This document shows, one piece after another, positions 8,819-15,733 of a stretch of 25,122 bases of DNA; within the stretch, counting starts at the first letter, position 1, and each line of letters opens with the position of its first letter. The stretch covers positions 1 through 25,122 of IMG/VR virus record IMGVR_UViG_3300035703_000393; one strand, written 5' to 3'. This stretch comes from a virus. The notes under the pieces are model-generated. The model worked only from the letters and a program-made list of their open reading frames with translations. It did no database searches and was not told the origin of the DNA. Position numbers and translations under genes: made by a program.

Positions 8819-10264
8819 ATGAATGATTTAATTCCTCTTAGAGCAACACATGGAATACATTCATCCTCGTCTCGGACGCCACATAAAGTGGCTATCCGAT
8901 ACGGGGATCGTTGCGTTACGTATAAAGAACTTGTCGATAGGATGAAGAGAGTATCATCTGGTGCTCTTGCATTCAATGGCAAGGTCGCAATCGTTGCTAA
9001 GAACAGTATCGAATATTTGGAAGTGTTATTTGGTGTATCAGATGTTGGTATACCAGTGGTCACTATCAATCCAAAGAACACTCAAGCAGAGGTCATAGCT
9101 GCGCTGAAGGACTCAGACACGAAAGTATTGTTTATAGATGAGAGTCTTCTGAAGGATGAATATAAAAACTACGTTGATACTATCATTACATTTGGAAGTC
9201 AATATGATAGTTGGATAAGTGGTCAGCAACCAATAGAACAATATAATGAGTTTGCTGACGATACAATCTACAACATTGTCTATACCTCAGGTACTACTGG
9301 TGCTCCAAAAGGAATTTGTATTCCTCATAGGACTCGAGCACTACTCAGTATAACAATGGCACTCGACTATAAGACGATGGGCATTGATGATACGATGTTG
9401 CTACTCGTCTCATTCTTCAATGGAGGTGGTAATGGGTCATTGCTAACAACATTGAATAATGGTGGCACTGTCATTATTGGTACACAAATGCATCCTGACT
9501 ATATCATGAGGATGGTTGAGACCTACTCTGTTACAGGATTGTTTTTGGTTCCTGCTCTGACGCATATGATTGTCAGTACACAATCATGTCACAAGTATGA
9601 TAGGAGTTCATTGAAGGTTATAATTAGTATCGCTGCTCCTTTTGATACTCCGTTAAAGAAGCAAGCTCTAGAATTCTTCAACTGTGACATTTGGGATTTG
9701 TATGGCACTACAGAGCATGGTCCTGTAACAGCATTGAAGGTTGGATCTAATATGCCAATCGATTCTGTTGGAGTTCCTATTACATTCTCAACAGTGAAGG
9801 TCGTTAACGATGAAGGCTTGGAATGTAAACCATATGAAATAGGTGAGGTGTATGGTCAGACAATAACAATGTTTCGAGGATACTTGAATGGCAAGAAAGC
9901 TGAAAGATTTGTTGCTGTGGGTGACCTAGGATATAAAGATGATGATGGATATCTGTTCCTAGTTGGTAGAAAGAATGATTTAATTATTTCAGCTGGTACA
10001 AACATCTACCCTGAAGAAGTAGAATTGATTCTTAACAAGTGTCCTGGAGTCATTGAGTCAGCTGTAATTGGTACACCAGATGATAGATGGGGTGAGATAG
10101 TAACAGTGTTTATTGTTGGTATGCCAGTAGTCGATCCAGTAATATATTGTAAAGAGAATCTTGCCAGCTATAAGATACCTAGAAAGATATTTTACATTGA
10201 TAGCATTCCTAAGAATGATGTTGGTAAAATTTTAAGAAAGAATCTACGGAAACATTATAAATAG
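8819..10264 (+). CDS. AMP-forming acyl/aryl-CoA ligase-like enzyme (ANL superfamily)
   Basis: A 481-residue adenylate-forming enzyme with every core motif of the ANL family. The P-loop-like A3 is YTSGTTGAPKG (155-165), A5 is YGTTE (295-299), A7 is VGDLGY (367-372), and A8 is GRKNDLIISAGTNIYPEEVE (383-402) with its hinge residue. A10 is PKNDVGKILRK (464-474) with the catalytic Lys470. These enzymes activate a carboxylic acid with ATP and usually load it onto CoA or a carrier protein. The chain is on the short side for fatty-acyl-CoA ligases, and the pocket cannot be read by eye, so the acid is unknown. No carrier-protein gene is seen nearby. It is intact and therefore probably active. Such a gene is rare in T4-like phages; it lies upstream of hsp20 and the plcP-agt pair. 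Confidence 0.92.
   Translation: MNDLIPLRATHGIHSSSSRTPHKVAIRYGDRCVTYKELVDRMKRVSSGALAFNGKVAIVAKNSIEYLEVLFGVSDVGIPVVTINPKNTQAEVIAALKDSDTKVLFIDESLLKDEYKNYVDTIITFGSQYDSWISGQQPIEQYNEFADDTIYNIVYTSGTTGAPKGICIPHRTRALLSITMALDYKTMGIDDTMLLLVSFFNGGGNGSLLTTLNNGGTVIIGTQMHPDYIMRMVETYSVTGLFLVPALTHMIVSTQSCHKYDRSSLKVIISIAAPFDTPLKKQALEFFNCDIWDLYGTTEHGPVTALKVGSNMPIDSVGVPITFSTVKVVNDEGLECKPYEIGEVYGQTITMFRGYLNGKKAERFVAVGDLGYKDDDGYLFLVGRKNDLIISAGTNIYPEEVELILNKCPGVIESAVIGTPDDRWGEIVTVFIVGMPVVDPVIYCKENLASYKIPRKIFYIDSIPKNDVGKILRKNLRKHYK
10256..10263 (+). promoter_or_regulatory. T4-type late promoter for hsp20
   Basis: An exact TATAAATA octamer, the T4 late promoter -10 element, overlaps the stop of the ANL ligase gene. 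It lies 64 nt upstream of the hsp20 ATG. The leader includes a GTAGG/CCTAC hairpin (about 10270-10292) and AAGGAG. Confidence 0.65.
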
Positions 10265-10327: not shown

Positions 10328-10813
10328 ATGACTAGACAAACTTTAAGTCTATTAGATCACATCGATCGTCAGTGGCATAACCACACAGTTGGCTTTGATA
10401 GAGCATTCAGTGTTTTACAACATGCAGCCAATGTAGCAAAGACTACAGATAACTTTCCACCCTACTCATTAGTCAAGAAAGATGAGTTCAATTATGAACT
10501 GGAGATGGCAGTAGCCGGATTCAGCGATAGCGATTTGGAGATTGTATCTTCAAAGAACCGTCTGTCTGTGGTTGGTATGAAACCAGAGAAGGATGAGAGA
10601 GAATATATTGTGAAAGGAATTGCAGGACGCAGTTTCGCTCGTGAGTTCGTTCTTGCTGATACTATTGTTGTACGTGAAGTGAATCTTGTTAATGGTATCT
10701 TGACAATTCAATTAGAGAATGTGGTACCAGAGGAGCAAAAGCCAAGGAAGATTACAATTGGAAAGAAACCAATTGAGTCCAAGGCAGAACTACTTGTTGA
10801 AGAAGACAAGTAA
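10328..10813 (+). CDS. Hsp20/IbpA-like small heat-shock protein
   Basis: A 161-residue alpha-crystallin-type chaperone of the bacterial IbpA class. The N-terminal arm carries TVGFDRAFSVLQ (20-31). The core includes FPPYSLVKKDEFNYELEMAVAGF (43-65; pattern NYPPY...Y...AVAGF), LSVVGMK (78-84), the IAGRSFAREFVLAD stretch (97-110) and NGILTIQLENVVPE (122-135). Small heat-shock proteins hold unfolding proteins for refolding. Hsp20 genes are widespread in cyanophages and related T4-like phages. This one stands as a single-gene unit: a late promoter octamer before it, a strong AAGGAG site and a terminator after it. It is therefore probably made late, perhaps to aid virion protein folding or survival of the lysing host. 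Confidence 0.93.
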   Translation: MTRQTLSLLDHIDRQWHNHTVGFDRAFSVLQHAANVAKTTDNFPPYSLVKKDEFNYELEMAVAGFSDSDLEIVSSKNRLSVVGMKPEKDEREYIVKGIAGRSFAREFVLADTIVVREVNLVNGILTIQLENVVPEEQKPRKITIGKKPIESKAELLVEEDK

Positions 10814-10820
10814 CTAATAG

Positions 10821-10850
10821 AAAGGGGGCACACCAGCCCCCTTTCCTTTA
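10821..10850 (+). terminator. rho-independent terminator after hsp20
   Basis: AAAGGGGGC (10821-10829) pairs with GCCCCCTTT (10836-10844) around ACACCA, followed by a pyrimidine tail CCTTTA. It begins 7 nt after the hsp20 stop. Confidence 0.85.
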
Positions 10851-10887
10851 TCATATATTAAATTTTTATTAATAATTACCTACCTAG

Positions 10888-10895
10888 TGTAAATA
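10888..10895 (+). promoter_or_regulatory. possible late promoter for the plcP-agt pair
   Basis: TGTAAATA, one mismatch from the TATAAATA late octamer, lies 24 nt upstream of the ATG at 10920 in the AT-rich gap that follows the hsp20 terminator. No good TTGACA/TATAAT pair is visible there, so this is the best candidate start signal for the two lipid genes. Confidence 0.35.
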
Positions 10896-10919: not shown

Positions 10920-11672
10920 ATGCCCAATTATAAATCGATATTCATATCTGACATTCACCTTGGCTCCAAAGGTTGCAAAGCAGATCTACTCTGTGACTTT
11001 TTAAAACACAATACAAGCGAACACTTGTATCTGGTTGGTGATATCATTGATGGGTGGAGACTAAAGAGAAAATTCTTCTGGCCTCAGTCCCACACAAATG
11101 TTATCAGAAGAATTCTGACAGCGGCTAAGAGAGATACGAAAGTTACCTATGTTGTAGGCAATCACGATGATTCGTTGAGAGATCTACTACCTTTTGATAT
11201 TCATTTTGGTAATATTGATCTTGTCAACCAATGTAGGCATAGGGGTGTTAATGGTAAAACCTATATGGTAATTCATGGTGATTTGTTTGATGGTGTGCTT
11301 AGAACAAAGCTTAGCTGGCTGTATCACATTGGTGATATTCTTTATAACATCTTGCTTGATATAAACATGATAGTAAGTAAAGTAAGAAATGTTCTTGGGC
11401 TGCCCCATTGGAGTCTTAGTGCCTACCTAAAAAATAAAACAAAGGAAGCAGTATCTTATCTTGGTGACTTTGAACAATTAATAACAGAATACTGTGCTAA
11501 GCAAAAAGCTGATGGTGTAATTTGCGGTCATATTCACAAAGCTGTTATTAAGAAGGTTGGTGATATAGAGTATATGAATGATGGTGATTGGGTAGAGAGC
11601 TGCACTGCCCTTGTAGAGCATCACGACGGACGATGGGAGATTATAAATTGGCTAGAACAAAAATCATCCTAA
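10920..11672 (+). CDS. plcP: PlcP-like phospholipase C / LpxH-family metallophosphoesterase
   Basis: A 250-residue calcineurin-type phosphoesterase. Metal motifs are all present: SDIHLG (Asp11, His13), GDIIDG (Asp41, Asp44), GNHD (80-83), IHGD (118-121) and GHIH (203-206). The surrounding text (WRLKRKFFWPQSH at 46-58, GLPHWSLSAYLK at 160-171, YMNDGDWVESCTALVEH at 218-234) follows the pattern I recall for PlcP of Sinorhizobium meliloti and marine alphaproteobacteria, proteins often mislabelled UDP-2,3-diacylglucosamine hydrolase. PlcP removes the phosphate headgroup from phosphatidylcholine, -ethanolamine and -glycerol, leaving diacylglycerol, during phosphate starvation. The next gene is an Agt-like glycosyltransferase that overlaps it by 40 nt, the same pairing seen in bacteria. 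LpxH itself is the alternative, but the pairing and C-terminal motifs favour PlcP. Confidence 0.8.
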   Translation: MPNYKSIFISDIHLGSKGCKADLLCDFLKHNTSEHLYLVGDIIDGWRLKRKFFWPQSHTNVIRRILTAAKRDTKVTYVVGNHDDSLRDLLPFDIHFGNIDLVNQCRHRGVNGKTYMVIHGDLFDGVLRTKLSWLYHIGDILYNILLDINMIVSKVRNVLGLPHWSLSAYLKNKTKEAVSYLGDFEQLITEYCAKQKADGVICGHIHKAVIKKVGDIEYMNDGDWVESCTALVEHHDGRWEIINWLEQKSS

Positions 11673-12676
11673 TCACCGATGCCTGGGAGCCTCAGGTTAA
11701 TGGTGTTGTAACAACATACAAGAACATCATCAAACATCTTCCAAAGGATGTTTCTGTGGATGTCATCCATCCGGCAATGTATGACTATCTACCGTTTACG
11801 CTCTATAAAGGTATAGAGATACCTCTTTGTTCTTTCAATATGATGTTTAATCTAATTGAACGAAGAACTAACCTATACAAAACTCAAGGCTACCACGTAT
11901 ATTATCATATTGCAACAGAAGGAGTTCTTGGGTACAAGGCAAAAAAAGTACTTGATCTATTGAAGTTACAATACACAACTGCATACCACACGAAGTTTCC
12001 AGAGTTTCTCAAATTGATGTTTGGTGTACCAACGTTTGCTACATCTTGGTACTTTAACTGGTTCCATAATAAATCAAAGGCTGTGATGTGTTCATCAGAG
12101 TCTGATTCAGCAACACATACTGATTGGAATACTGTTGTGTTAGGTAAGGGATATGCAAGTCACTTCACATTTCAAGACTCGCAATATAAGCGCGACATTG
12201 ATTTGCTTTATGTTGGAAGAGTAAGTCATGAGAAGAATATAGAGGACTTTTGTAAGATACAACTTGATGGATGGACTGAGTATGGCGCCAAGGTTACCAA
12301 AACGGTTGTAGGCGATGGTCCTGCTAGAGCCGCCCTCGAGAAGAAATACCCAGACGTTAAATTTGTAGGTTATAAGTTTGGTAAAGAGTTAGCAAGATAC
12401 TACCAGAGAAATGATGTTTGCGTATTCCCAAGCAAAGTAGATACATATGGAATTACAATCCTTGAATCAATGGCATGTGGAACTCCTGTTGCTGGCTACC
12501 CTGTAACTGGACCAATTGATCAAATTGTTAACGGTGTGAATGGTTTTGTTAATGATGATTTAGATTTTGCAGTTGGTCAATGTCTACTTCTCGATAGGGT
12601 ACAAGTAGCTAAGTCTGTTGAACACATCTCATGGGAACGGTCAGCTGAGCAGTTTGTTAAGTACGTTACCAGTTGA
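11633..12676 (+). CDS. agt: Agt-like lipid glycosyltransferase, GT4 family
   Basis: A 347-residue GT-B glycosyltransferase. ITDAWEPQVNGVVTTY (about 13-28) is the N-terminal glycine loop region. HIATEGVLG and AYHTKFPEF mark the acceptor side. LYVGRVSHEKNIEDF opens the C-terminal nucleotide-sugar domain, VVGDGPARAALEKKYPDVKFVG follows in pattern, and D270-x7-E278 (VDTYGITILES) replaces the usual E-x7-E. This sequence pattern is that of the alphaproteobacterial Agt enzymes, which add glucose or glucuronate to diacylglycerol made by PlcP, producing phosphate-free glycolipids. The start is uncertain: ATG 11633 is given, but TTG at 11648, 7 nt after GGGAGA, is a good alternative and fits the family N-terminus better. 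It ends just at the next promoter. Confidence 0.8.
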   Translation: MGDYKLARTKIILITDAWEPQVNGVVTTYKNIIKHLPKDVSVDVIHPAMYDYLPFTLYKGIEIPLCSFNMMFNLIERRTNLYKTQGYHVYYHIATEGVLGYKAKKVLDLLKLQYTTAYHTKFPEFLKLMFGVPTFATSWYFNWFHNKSKAVMCSSESDSATHTDWNTVVLGKGYASHFTFQDSQYKRDIDLLYVGRVSHEKNIEDFCKIQLDGWTEYGAKVTKTVVGDGPARAALEKKYPDVKFVGYKFGKELARYYQRNDVCVFPSKVDTYGITILESMACGTPVAGYPVTGPIDQIVNGVNGFVNDDLDFAVGQCLLLDRVQVAKSVEHISWERSAEQFVKYVTS

Positions 12677-12724: not shown

Positions 12725-12892
12725 ATGGATAAATCTGAATTACCTATTCTTATTGTACTTTTATTGACAGGAATATTTGCTCTTGTCAATACCATCTTCC
12801 ATTGGATTCCTTACTCTGCCCCACCAGTTATCTTGATGATTGGTATTGCGCTTTATTCATTATGGGAGTACAAGTATGGCAACAAGGCGTAA
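12725..12892 (+). CDS. small two-helix membrane protein
   Basis: A 55-residue protein (MDKSELPILIVLLLTG...). Residues 7-25 (PILIVLLLTGIFALVNTIF) and 32-48 (APPVILMIGIALYSLWE) are hydrophobic and should span the membrane twice, joined by a short HWIPYS loop; the tail is charged (YKYGNKA). AGAGG lies 9 nt before the ATG and the strong promoter lies just upstream, so it is a real first gene of an operon. It overlaps the next gene by 17 nt. I do not recognise it. Its neighbour carries a Tat signal, so both products seem aimed at the host inner membrane. Confidence 0.7.
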   Translation: MDKSELPILIVLLLTGIFALVNTIFHWIPYSAPPVILMIGIALYSLWEYKYGNKA

Positions 12893-13205
12893 CTTTTTTA
12901 AGTATCTTGGTCTTGCAGGTGGCGTGGCTGGTGGGGGCGTTGTTGCCGCTGCTGCTATGTTACCAGATCCCGATAAAACAGAATGCATAAAGCAAATTGA
13001 TAGTACGATGACCAATATATCGTTCAATCAAACTTATGGTCAAAGACTTCCAGATCCAGCACCACCCGGAAACTATTTGTATGTGCATGAACCGCGATAT
13101 GTTCCTGGAACAAAAAAGAATGTTACTGTTGGAATGAATGTTGGTCCTGATGGTGAATTGTACTTGAAAGTTAATGGGAAATGGCGTAAAGTAGTCACTG
13201 AATGA
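12876..13205 (+). CDS. Tat-signal exported protein of unknown function
   Basis: A 109-residue protein. Its N-terminus, MATRRNFFKYLG, fits the twin-arginine consensus (S/T)RRxFLK, followed by a glycine/alanine-rich hydrophobic core (LAGGVAGGGVVAAAA, 13-27), as in signals for the Tat pathway, which exports folded proteins. The mature part has one Cys (TECIKQ), a LPDPAPPGNYLYVHEPRYVPG stretch (about 57-77; only part cited here as pattern) and a beta-hairpin-like end (MNVGPDGELYLKVNGKWRKV). No enzyme family is recognised. An in-frame GTG or ATG-like start further upstream would bury the signal, whereas ATG 12876 has GGAG 8 nt before it. The stop overlaps the ATG of gene 43 (ATGA). A phage-coded Tat substrate is unusual. 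Confidence 0.75.
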   Translation: MATRRNFFKYLGLAGGVAGGGVVAAAAMLPDPDKTECIKQIDSTMTNISFNQTYGQRLPDPAPPGNYLYVHEPRYVPGTKKNVTVGMNVGPDGELYLKVNGKWRKVVTE

Positions 13206-15733
13206 GTAAGTTCTATACAAATGTTAGCATCAGGGGGAATGATATTCTCCTTCGTGGTTATGAAGATGGGCGCCGTGTGCAGAGCAAGGTGGCCTATCAA
13301 CCATTCTGCTTTAAGAATTCATCTAATCCGAACGCACCGTACAAGACTATCGATGGGCAGCCTGCCGAGAAGATAGACTTCGAGACCATCAATGAGATGA
13401 TGGACTTTATGAAGATGTATGAAGGCGTTGGCGGCATGAAGCTATATGGCATGACAGCAAGAAACTCTCTTGTCTATCCATTCATCCACGAATACTATCC
13501 AGGTGATATTGATTACGATGTATCGATAATGAATATCGTTCACTTGGATATTGAGGTGGCGGCTGATGAAGGCTTCCCAAGTATTGAGGAAGCCGACAAA
13601 GAGCTAACTGCAATCACTATCAAAGTTAAAGACAACTACTACACATTTGGTTGTGGTGAATATACACCAAACCAATCCAACGTCCATTATGCTAAGTGTA
13701 AGAACGAACGTGACCTAATCATGAAGTTCTTAACGCTTTGGGATTCACCTCTGATTGATCCAGATATCGTAACTGGATGGAACGTAGAGGCGTTCGATAT
13801 TCCATATCTTGTCAACCGAATTAATAGAGTGTTTAATGATGAAGGTAAGATGGCTAAGAAGCTATCGCCTTGGAAGATTGTTGAGGATAGAGAGATCACT
13901 CCTCGTGGTTCTAATAAAGTAATCAAGGCAAAGACGCTAAGAGGTATCTCTGTACTTGACTACCTTGCACTCTATAAGAAGTTCACATACTCAGATACTG
14001 AGAGCTACTCTCTTAACCATATTGCTCACCTTGAGCTTGGTGAGAAGAAGGTTGACTATTCTGAATACGAAAGCTTGTTTGCACTATACAAACATGACTT
14101 CCAAAAGTTCATTGAGTATAATATCCACGACGTTACTCTTGTGTCGAAGCTTGATGATAAGATGAAACTTATCGATCAGGTCCTTGCTATTGCATACGAT
14201 GCTAAGGTTGATTACATCGATACCTTGCGTACAGTGCGTATGTGGGATATGATTATTCACAACTACCTAATTGATAGAAACATTGTCGTTCCTCTATCGA
14301 CAGGTGGTGATGTAGAGAAGGATGAACCAATTCAGGGTGCCTATGTTAAGGATCCTAAACCTGGTATGTACAATTATGTTGTGTCCTTTGACTTGACATC
14401 TCTGTACCCATCTTTGATCATGCAGTATAATATCTCACCTGATACTAAGACGTTGAAGGTAGACCTTACGCCAGAAGATTGTCTAGACAATACTGGTACA
14501 TTCCAGATGGCTAGAGATGAGGCTAAGGGTAGAGATCTTACACTATGTGCTAATGGCACAATGTATAGAAAGGACACTGTAGGCTTCCTATCTGCTCTGA
14601 TGGAAAAGGTCTTTGCTGATAGAAAGAAATATAAGAAGCTAATGCTTGAAGCGAAGCAGAAGTATGAGCTATCTAAAGATCCTGAAGACGAGAAGAAGTA
14701 TGTTCAGTATAACAATATGCAGATGGCTAAGAAGATCCAGCTGAATAGTTGTTATGGTGCTTTGTCTAATATCTACTTCCGTTTCTTCGATACTGATCTT
14801 GCTGAAGCCATTACGCTCTCTGGTCAGGTATCGATTCGATGGATGCAGGATAGAATGAATGAGTTCTTGAACAAGACTCTCAAAACTGATAGTGTCGATT
14901 ATGTTATTGCTGTAGATACCGATTCGTTGTATATAACTCTCGATAAGTTTGCTGAGAAGGTATACAATGGTAAGATGCCAGAGCGCGACAAGGTTGTCCG
15001 TATGTTGGATAAGGCTTGTGAGGAAGTCTTTCAGCCATTCATCGAAAAGAGTTACGAAGATCTTGGCAACCATATGTTGATCCATAGTCAGCGTATGCAG
15101 ATGAAGCGAGAGTCGATAGCTGATAAGGGTATCTGGGTTGCGAAGAAGAGATACATCCTTAATGTCTTTAACGAAGAGGGTGTCCAGTATGAGAAGCCAA
15201 AGCTAAAGATGAAAGGCATTGAGGCTGTTAAGTCCTCTACTCCTGCTGTTGTTAAGGAAGCAATTAAGAAGTCCTTGTACATCATCATGAATAGTACAAA
15301 GAGTGAATTTGATTCTTATGTTGAAGAGTTTAGAGATCAATTCAACACTCTACCATTTGAGGATGTTGCATTCCCAAGAAGCTGCCAGGACATATCAAGC
15401 CGTAGGTTTGGTGATAAGGGTATTCCGATCCACGTTCGTGGTGCGTTAGCCTACAATATTAACATAAATAAGTTAGGTCTTGATAAAAAGTACAACATGG
15501 TTAGAGATGGTGACAAGATTAAGTTCTCATACTTAAAGTCACCTAATCCAATTGGAACTAATGTGTTGTCGTCACCTGGTGCTGTGCCAAAGCAATTCAA
15601 TATTGAGCAATATATTGACTACGATACGCAATTCGATAAGTCATTTGTCGAGCCTATGAAGTCGATTGTCGAGAACATAGGTTGGACAGTTGGTGAACAG
15701 AAACAATTAACTCTAGAAGACATGTTTGGGTAA
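13202..15733 (+). CDS. 43: family B DNA polymerase (gp43)
   Basis: An 843-residue replicative polymerase, intact in one frame (T4 gp43: 898). The 3'-5' exonuclease shows HLDIEVA (Asp116, Glu118), TGWNVEAFDIPYL (191-203) and YNIHD (306-310). The polymerase domain shows DLTSLYPSL (motif A, 397-405), KIQLNSCYG (motif B, 511-519) and VDTDS (motif C, 571-575), then KKRYILNV and a KxKG-type contact (KMKGIEA). The C-terminus QLTLEDMFG is a typical clamp-binding peptide for gp45. No intein, intron or split is present, unlike some relatives. It starts in an ATGA overlap with the Tat protein and lies in the operon begun at 12673, so it is uncoupled from regA, its usual T4 neighbour. Confidence 0.98.
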   Translation: MSKFYTNVSIRGNDILLRGYEDGRRVQSKVAYQPFCFKNSSNPNAPYKTIDGQPAEKIDFETINEMMDFMKMYEGVGGMKLYGMTARNSLVYPFIHEYYPGDIDYDVSIMNIVHLDIEVAADEGFPSIEEADKELTAITIKVKDNYYTFGCGEYTPNQSNVHYAKCKNERDLIMKFLTLWDSPLIDPDIVTGWNVEAFDIPYLVNRINRVFNDEGKMAKKLSPWKIVEDREITPRGSNKVIKAKTLRGISVLDYLALYKKFTYSDTESYSLNHIAHLELGEKKVDYSEYESLFALYKHDFQKFIEYNIHDVTLVSKLDDKMKLIDQVLAIAYDAKVDYIDTLRTVRMWDMIIHNYLIDRNIVVPLSTGGDVEKDEPIQGAYVKDPKPGMYNYVVSFDLTSLYPSLIMQYNISPDTKTLKVDLTPEDCLDNTGTFQMARDEAKGRDLTLCANGTMYRKDTVGFLSALMEKVFADRKKYKKLMLEAKQKYELSKDPEDEKKYVQYNNMQMAKKIQLNSCYGALSNIYFRFFDTDLAEAITLSGQVSIRWMQDRMNEFLNKTLKTDSVDYVIAVDTDSLYITLDKFAEKVYNGKMPERDKVVRMLDKACEEVFQPFIEKSYEDLGNHMLIHSQRMQMKRESIADKGIWVAKKRYILNVFNEEGVQYEKPKLKMKGIEAVKSSTPAVVKEAIKKSLYIIMNSTKSEFDSYVEEFRDQFNTLPFEDVAFPRSCQDISSRRFGDKGIPIHVRGALAYNININKLGLDKKYNMVRDGDKIKFSYLKSPNPIGTNVLSSPGAVPKQFNIEQYIDYDTQFDKSFVEPMKSIVENIGWTVGEQKQLTLEDMFG

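Follow-up and report, generated by a model that had tools for sequence, protein, structure and literature searches.

RESULTS AND DISCUSSION

Overlapping plcP and agt genes in a T4-like phage

Do two overlapping genes carried by a phage form a module that converts host phospholipid into glycolipid, and, if so, what would the phage gain from it? The genes lie in a 25,122-base fragment of an IMG/VR virus record (hereafter the window, meaning the whole stretch of DNA analyzed), for which a preliminary description, made from the sequence alone, had claimed two overlapping genes at 10920-12676, a PlcP-like phosphoesterase with all metal motifs, an Agt-like GT4 enzyme and a T4-like phage. The open reading frames were as claimed. 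The plcP gene (10920..11672, plus strand) opens with ATG at 10920, stops at 11672 and encodes a 250-residue PlcP-type calcineurin-like phosphoesterase (Pfam Metallophos, 7e-11), and agt (11633..12676, plus strand) opens with ATG and encodes a 347-residue protein (Pfam Glyco_trans_1_4, 3e-20), a putative Agt1-type GT4 diacylglycerol glycosyltransferase. The longest mechanical frame for agt opens upstream at TTG 11588; ATG 11633 was preferred because the starts of homologues align with it, and with this start the two genes truly overlap by ~40 nt (11633-11672). The overlap measures 34-40 nt in most relatives.

The pair is bordered by genes that recur in related phages. To the left lies an Hsp20 gene (10328..10813, plus strand; PF00011, 4e-16), which is syntenic in the related loci L001-L003, L009, L035 and L042, followed by an intrinsic terminator (10820..10845, plus strand; 10-bp stem with 7 GC pairs and a T-rich tail), the sole terminator-like site between 8000 and 13500, which parts plcP-agt from Hsp20 and the upstream unit. 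To the right are a small protein whose N terminus is twin-arginine-like (12876..13205, plus strand), kept in the same position before gp43 in L009, L042, L081 and L082, and the T4-type DNA polymerase gp43 itself (13202..15733, plus strand; phrog_262, 1e-296; 49.5% identical to cyanomyoviruses). T4-like identity is supported by the replication genes of the window (gp43, the clamp gp45, the clamp loader subunits gp44 and gp62, UvsX and a gp41-type helicase) and by the T4 gp23 capsid gene present in large contigs of relatives. Farther upstream is an acyl-CoA ligase-like AMP-binding enzyme (8819..10264, plus strand; PF00501, 7e-61, and PF13193), a neighbor whose membership in the module is uncertain. 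Its AMP-binding motifs are intact; neither what it acts on nor whether it contributes to lipid remodeling is known. It is 54% identical in L001-L003, and only 37% identical to the protein encoded at the syntenic position on L009.

The phosphoesterase is of the PlcP type

Over its full length the window phosphoesterase was 47% identical to the PA3219-type protein of Pseudomonas aeruginosa, which we take to be PlcP from its operon partner (for the genetics of P. aeruginosa PlcP, see PMC8528852), 46% identical to a Sinorhizobium meliloti protein, which we take to be the characterized PlcP from its sinI/sinR-like neighbors, and 18% identical to Escherichia coli LpxH (UDP-2,3-diacylglucosamine diphosphatase), an enzyme with the same fold and metal ligands. 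The binuclear metal site is complete (D11, H13, D41, N81, H119, H204 and H206), all seven ligands being invariant from the phage to E. coli LpxH, and residues 80-83 read GNHD, as in nearly all aligned PlcPs, where LpxH has GNRD and hence an arginine that PlcP has replaced. Two curated LpxH models failed to accept the window protein (35.4 bits against a cut-off of 134, and 23.4 against 190); the same models gave 38-55 bits for characterized PlcPs and 364 and 389 bits for E. coli LpxH. LpxH was set apart from every PlcP by a very long branch of the tree, in which one clade (support 99) united the viral PlcPs, including the protein of phage Mosig and leaving that of S-SRM01 outside. Percent identity, the GNHD motif, the sub-cut-off model scores and the tree all speak against LpxH identity, and the window protein is a PlcP-type phosphoesterase; that it hydrolyzes phosphatidylethanolamine or phosphatidylglycerol is inferred from homology, motifs and tree, since lipid activity has not been shown. 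For its predicted fold (pLDDT 81) the nearest solved structure was LpxH (Foldseek E 1e-09; Z 18.5), as is expected because a PDB sequence search with PlcP returned no match at E 0.001; with no solved PlcP among the result rows, structure searches cannot separate the two families.

Database labels for these proteins vary. Two phage relatives (L103, 8001-8738, and L107, 5995-6699) carry the GenBank label UDP-2,3-diacylglucosamine hydrolase (LpxH), and the nearest PHROGs family, matched partially and weakly (2.8e-10 over 89 residues), is labeled 'DNA repair exonuclease'. One 3.7-Mb record titled plasmid pSymB (L106, CP090106.1), which holds sinI/sinR-like and plcP genes, is probably a chromosome.

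The glycosyltransferase belongs to the Agt1 group

The window glycosyltransferase (GT) shared 39% identity with P. aeruginosa Agt1, an enzyme that yields MGDG in E. coli (PMC8528852), and 34-40% with alphaproteobacterial Agt-type enzymes; its identity to Agt2 was 27% and that to an MgtA-like enzyme 25%. In a tree with broader GT4 outgroups, viral and bacterial plcP-linked Agt1 proteins shared a branch (support 97/99), with Agt2 and other GT4s falling outside it; this placement speaks against a polysaccharide-type GT4. E. coli WaaG, WaaB, WcaI and WcaC, tried as outgroups, were dropped for their saturated branches.

The SAR11 enzyme GTcp has a His-Asp dyad and the UDP-sugar motifs GRVAxEKN and FPSxTDTFG, and residues important in it have been established by mutation (PMC8231724). 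The window protein keeps the catalytic dyad (H119/D270), carries the motifs GRVSHEKN and FPSKVDTYG, and retains the mutation-tested positions G24, G97, G100, H119, R196, K201, D270, T271, G273, E278 and W334. It deviates at two GTcp positions, R163 (K172 in the window) and F258 (Y272), and both changes also occur in the active P. aeruginosa Agt1. Among the diacylglycerol-binding residues of GTcp (His104, Arg163 and Trp320; PMC8231724), the first and last are kept as H119 and W334 and the second is K172. The subclade of the window protein also has alanine at position 175, where nearly all homologues carry Asp (RGVD changed to KGYA). The predicted structure (pLDDT 90) adopts a GT-B fold, and structure searches cannot split Agt from other GT4s, there being no solved Agt among the result rows. 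We assign the protein to the Agt1-type GT4s; synthesis of MGDG or GADG, the lipid substrate and the sugar donor are all inferred, no activity having been shown. Both enzyme assignments of the preliminary description thus held, the phosphoesterase grouping apart from LpxH and the GT with Agt1 rather than with other GT4s, and the loss of catalytic residues that it had named as grounds for refutation was not found.

Conservation and selection of the pair

A scan of IMG/VR with plcP recovered 109 relatives, and 80 of these were retained; the corresponding GT scan found only 4 loci, its patterns having been built from a single sequence, so that the plcP scan gave the better view. Together with 2 loci from the GT scan and Mosig, this made 83 plcP loci, which are contigs and not independent lineages. 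The gene 3' of plcP was an agt-like GT4 in 48, pstS in 12, a GT2 in 9 and a TonB receptor in 1, with 8 unrecognised and 5 ending at the contig edge. The same adjacency is also found in bacterial lipid-remodeling operons. Between close phages, dN/dS for plcP and agt was ~0.02-0.12, against 0.10 for gp43; it was 0.2-0.27 among more distant agt alleles, where many synonymous sites were saturated. Both genes are under purifying selection comparable to that on the DNA polymerase, and recurrence of the pair across 48 viral contigs with such dN/dS values shows that its presence is not due to chance. The two gene trees were discordant, the window plcP being nearest L001 (92%) and the window agt nearest L081 (81%), a disagreement that fits cassette shuffling.

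A slot for phosphate genes in related phages

Where plcP was not followed by a GT4 gene, the recognised neighbors were identified as PBP_like_2/PstS (E 1e-38 to 1e-50), Porin_5, GT2 or a TonB receptor; pstS in this position was often accompanied by a porin gene. On L009, a 188-kb contig with T4 gp23, the order is ligase-Hsp20-pstS-porin-plcP-agt-TAT protein-gp43; on L042 it is Hsp20-plcP-pstS-porin-TAT protein-gp43; and in the window it is Hsp20-plcP-agt-TAT protein-gp43. These orders therefore describe a single genomic slot with exchangeable phosphate genes. A pstS gene lay within ~5 kb of plcP in 15 of the 83 viral loci, a minority drawn from contigs that are not all independent. This number includes Mosig EXVC030M, isolated on Pelagibacter, in which plcP is divergent from pstS. 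No pstS was found in the 25,122 nt of the window.

A GT2 gene takes the place of agt directly 3' of plcP in, among others, L010 (5912-6622), L025, L028, L062, L063, L065 and L072; it might be a non-orthologous replacement of agt, able to glycosylate diacylglycerol. Phage outer-membrane proteins (Porin_5 or TonB-dependent receptors) lie beside plcP or pstS in L042 (2344-3378), L051 (6864-8042), L010 (6766-7719), L045 (5803-8304) and L014 (6875-9325), and could conceivably raise the entry of phosphate.

Direct repeats upstream of plcP and possible PhoB control

Between the terminator and plcP, the window carries a Pho-box-like direct repeat, TATTAAA-TTTT-TATTAAT (10856..10873, plus strand), of 7-4-7 layout and 11-nt period, whose function is inferred. 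The half-sites of the known Pho box, CTGTCATN4CTGTCAT, are likewise spaced 11 nt apart (PMC8528852). When the window was scanned with the E. coli-type Pho-box consensus, the best hit (10/14, minus strand) was equaled by 12 of 60 shuffles and was not significant; predictions of such boxes in phages are known to mislead (PMC10976474). The consensus scan was replaced by a period test, in which direct repeats of every spacing from 7 to 22 nt were scored in 43 non-redundant regions preceding either viral plcP or the gene that opens its unit. Only the 11-nt period stood out strongly (z 7.36, 0/200 shuffles; runner-up 18 nt, z 3.4), and it was not enriched in 134 control upstream regions of other genes from the same loci (z -1.0). 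The motif WATTAADN4KATTAA matched the window once, at the repeat (0.04 expected), and the 188-kb L009 contig only twice, once before pstS and once before plcP; this motif was chosen after inspection, the repeat having first been spotted by eye in these sequences. Near-consensus Pho boxes occur in relatives L010 (ATGTCAT-gata-TTGTCAT), L025, L028, L058, L065 and L080, and the repeats tend to sit ~8-10 nt before a TATA-type hexamer, where one exists. Control of the module by host PhoB is probable, an inference from sequence without data on PhoB binding or regulation.

A T4 late promoter for plcP was considered and rejected, as TATAAATA occurs just once in the window, not before plcP but at 10256, where the acyl-CoA ligase gene ends. 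A one-off sequence, TGTAAATA (10888-10895), ~25 nt before plcP, resembles that promoter with one mismatch, and a TATATAAT-like box stands in a comparable position in many relatives.

Proposed function

On the basis of homology, motifs, gene order, conservation, selection, pstS linkage and the 11-nt repeat, we consider it likely (probability ~0.8) that plcP-agt is a phage phospholipid-to-glycolipid remodeling module, most probably salvaging phosphorus from host phospholipids; the lipid substrates, sugar donor, PhoB binding and phosphate benefit are inferred. In this model, metal-dependent PlcP would act on phosphatidylethanolamine or phosphatidylglycerol of the host, removing the phospho-headgroup so that diacylglycerol remains, and Agt would transfer a sugar from a UDP-sugar onto this diacylglycerol, which would keep the membrane intact and prevent diacylglycerol build-up. 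The preliminary description had phosphate itself being spared for phage DNA. That reading gains from the pstS linkage in relatives (including Mosig and the pstS-porin-plcP-agt order of L009) and from the upstream repeats, and it needs refinement: what PlcP releases is a phospho-headgroup rather than phosphate itself, which makes an additional phosphatase step necessary, and the headgroup would feed nucleotide synthesis for phage DNA only after the action of host phosphatases. As a rough estimate, with about five million phospholipids in a small Gram-negative cell and ~0.38 million phosphates needed per 188-kb genome, complete remodeling would supply at most about a dozen genomes, a useful but not limitless source. 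Against the module reading stand the absence from the window of pstS and of a significant Pho-box consensus, A175 in the GT, and the presence of pstS at only 15/83 loci.

The module would sit within a phosphate-scavenging island of T4-like phages from aquatic settings (pstS, outer-membrane porin, plcP, and agt or GT2), with expression probably answering to host PhoB. A bolder version, for and against which we see the case as evenly balanced, is that T4-like phages infecting aquatic bacteria hold a modular island in which pstS, plcP and a gene for an outer-membrane porin or TonB receptor are joined by an interchangeable glycosyltransferase gene (GT4 agt or GT2). Under the control of host PhoB, this island would turn the phospholipid of a phosphorus-starved host into the phosphorus of phage DNA during infection.

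Alternative explanations

The alternative that survives best, which we nevertheless regard as unlikely, is that the same enzymes serve another purpose, membrane remodeling acting to keep out superinfecting phage, change the surface charge or set the timing of lysis, with phosphate saving incidental. Host aminolipid content influences phage attachment in Ruegeria (PMC9938194) and glycolipids change envelope properties in P. aeruginosa (PMC8528852), but the pstS and porin genes linked to plcP and the Pho-box-like repeats point to phosphate and would be unexpected for an exclusion function. Far less credible is an LpxH-like phosphoesterase paired with a GT acting on LPS or another polysaccharide, the two editing the host surface. 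LpxH is the closest solved fold and phage relatives bear its name, but sequence identity, the GNHD motif and the LpxH model scores all speak against it, the structural match reflects only the nearest solved relative, and the GT lies in the Agt1 group. Equally remote is a role unrelated to lipids, such as nucleotide or DNA phosphodiester cleavage with glycosylation of DNA or protein, for which the PHROGs exonuclease label and the frequent modification of DNA by phage GTs could be cited, but that label rests on a partial, weak match, and the bacterial plcP-agt operon is a far closer match for the two proteins.

Relation to known systems

The proposed phosphorus-salvaging module has its closest counterpart in the bacterial PlcP-Agt operon (SAR11 HTCC7211, Erythrobacter NAP1 and P. 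aeruginosa PA3219-PA3218), with which it shares the two families, their order, their adjacency or overlap and the catalytic residues. The bacterial versions belong to the Pho regulon and are used under phosphate starvation, and in approximately two-thirds of bacterial strains plcP lies beside a gene for non-phosphorus lipid synthesis (PMC4796936), as the window plcP does with the overlapping agt. The SAR11 PlcP has been used to complement a plcP deletion strain of Phaeobacter sp. MED193 (PMC4796936). Unlike the bacterial operon, the phage pair is carried by a T4-like phage, has a PlcP from a separate viral clade and is combined in relatives with phage pstS, porin or GT2 genes. The pstS and phoA genes of cyanophages (Kyanoviridae; PMC10976474), which are under host PhoB, share with it T4-like phages, phosphate stress and, as proposed here, PhoB-type control; those genes take up or release external phosphate, whereas plcP-agt would target the phosphorus contained in the membrane lipids of the host. 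A search of open-access literature gave no report of phage plcP-agt, phage lipid remodeling or plcP as an auxiliary gene. Phage acquisition of phosphate through pstS and phoA is already known; membrane lipid as the target appears new within that literature. The gene class has been hidden so far because database entries read LpxH or 'DNA repair exonuclease'. If the reading is correct, phage mining of membrane-bound phosphorus would be a new route beyond boosted phosphate uptake, and it would tie the lipid composition of waters poor in phosphorus to infection by viruses.

Gene 120 of Mosig is a plcP relative 54% identical to that of the window; unlike the window it has no agt beside it, and it is annotated as UDP-2,3-diacylglucosamine hydrolase. 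Because this isolated pelagiphage already carries plcP beside pstS, the idea is directly testable. Three contigs assigned to bacterial MAGs, L085, L100 and L101 (Muricauda, Rickettsiales, Actinomycetota), look like misbinned phage: the bin of L085 contains T4 gp23, L101 has the gene order plcP-pstS-porin, and the plcP of L100 is almost identical to that of Mosig.
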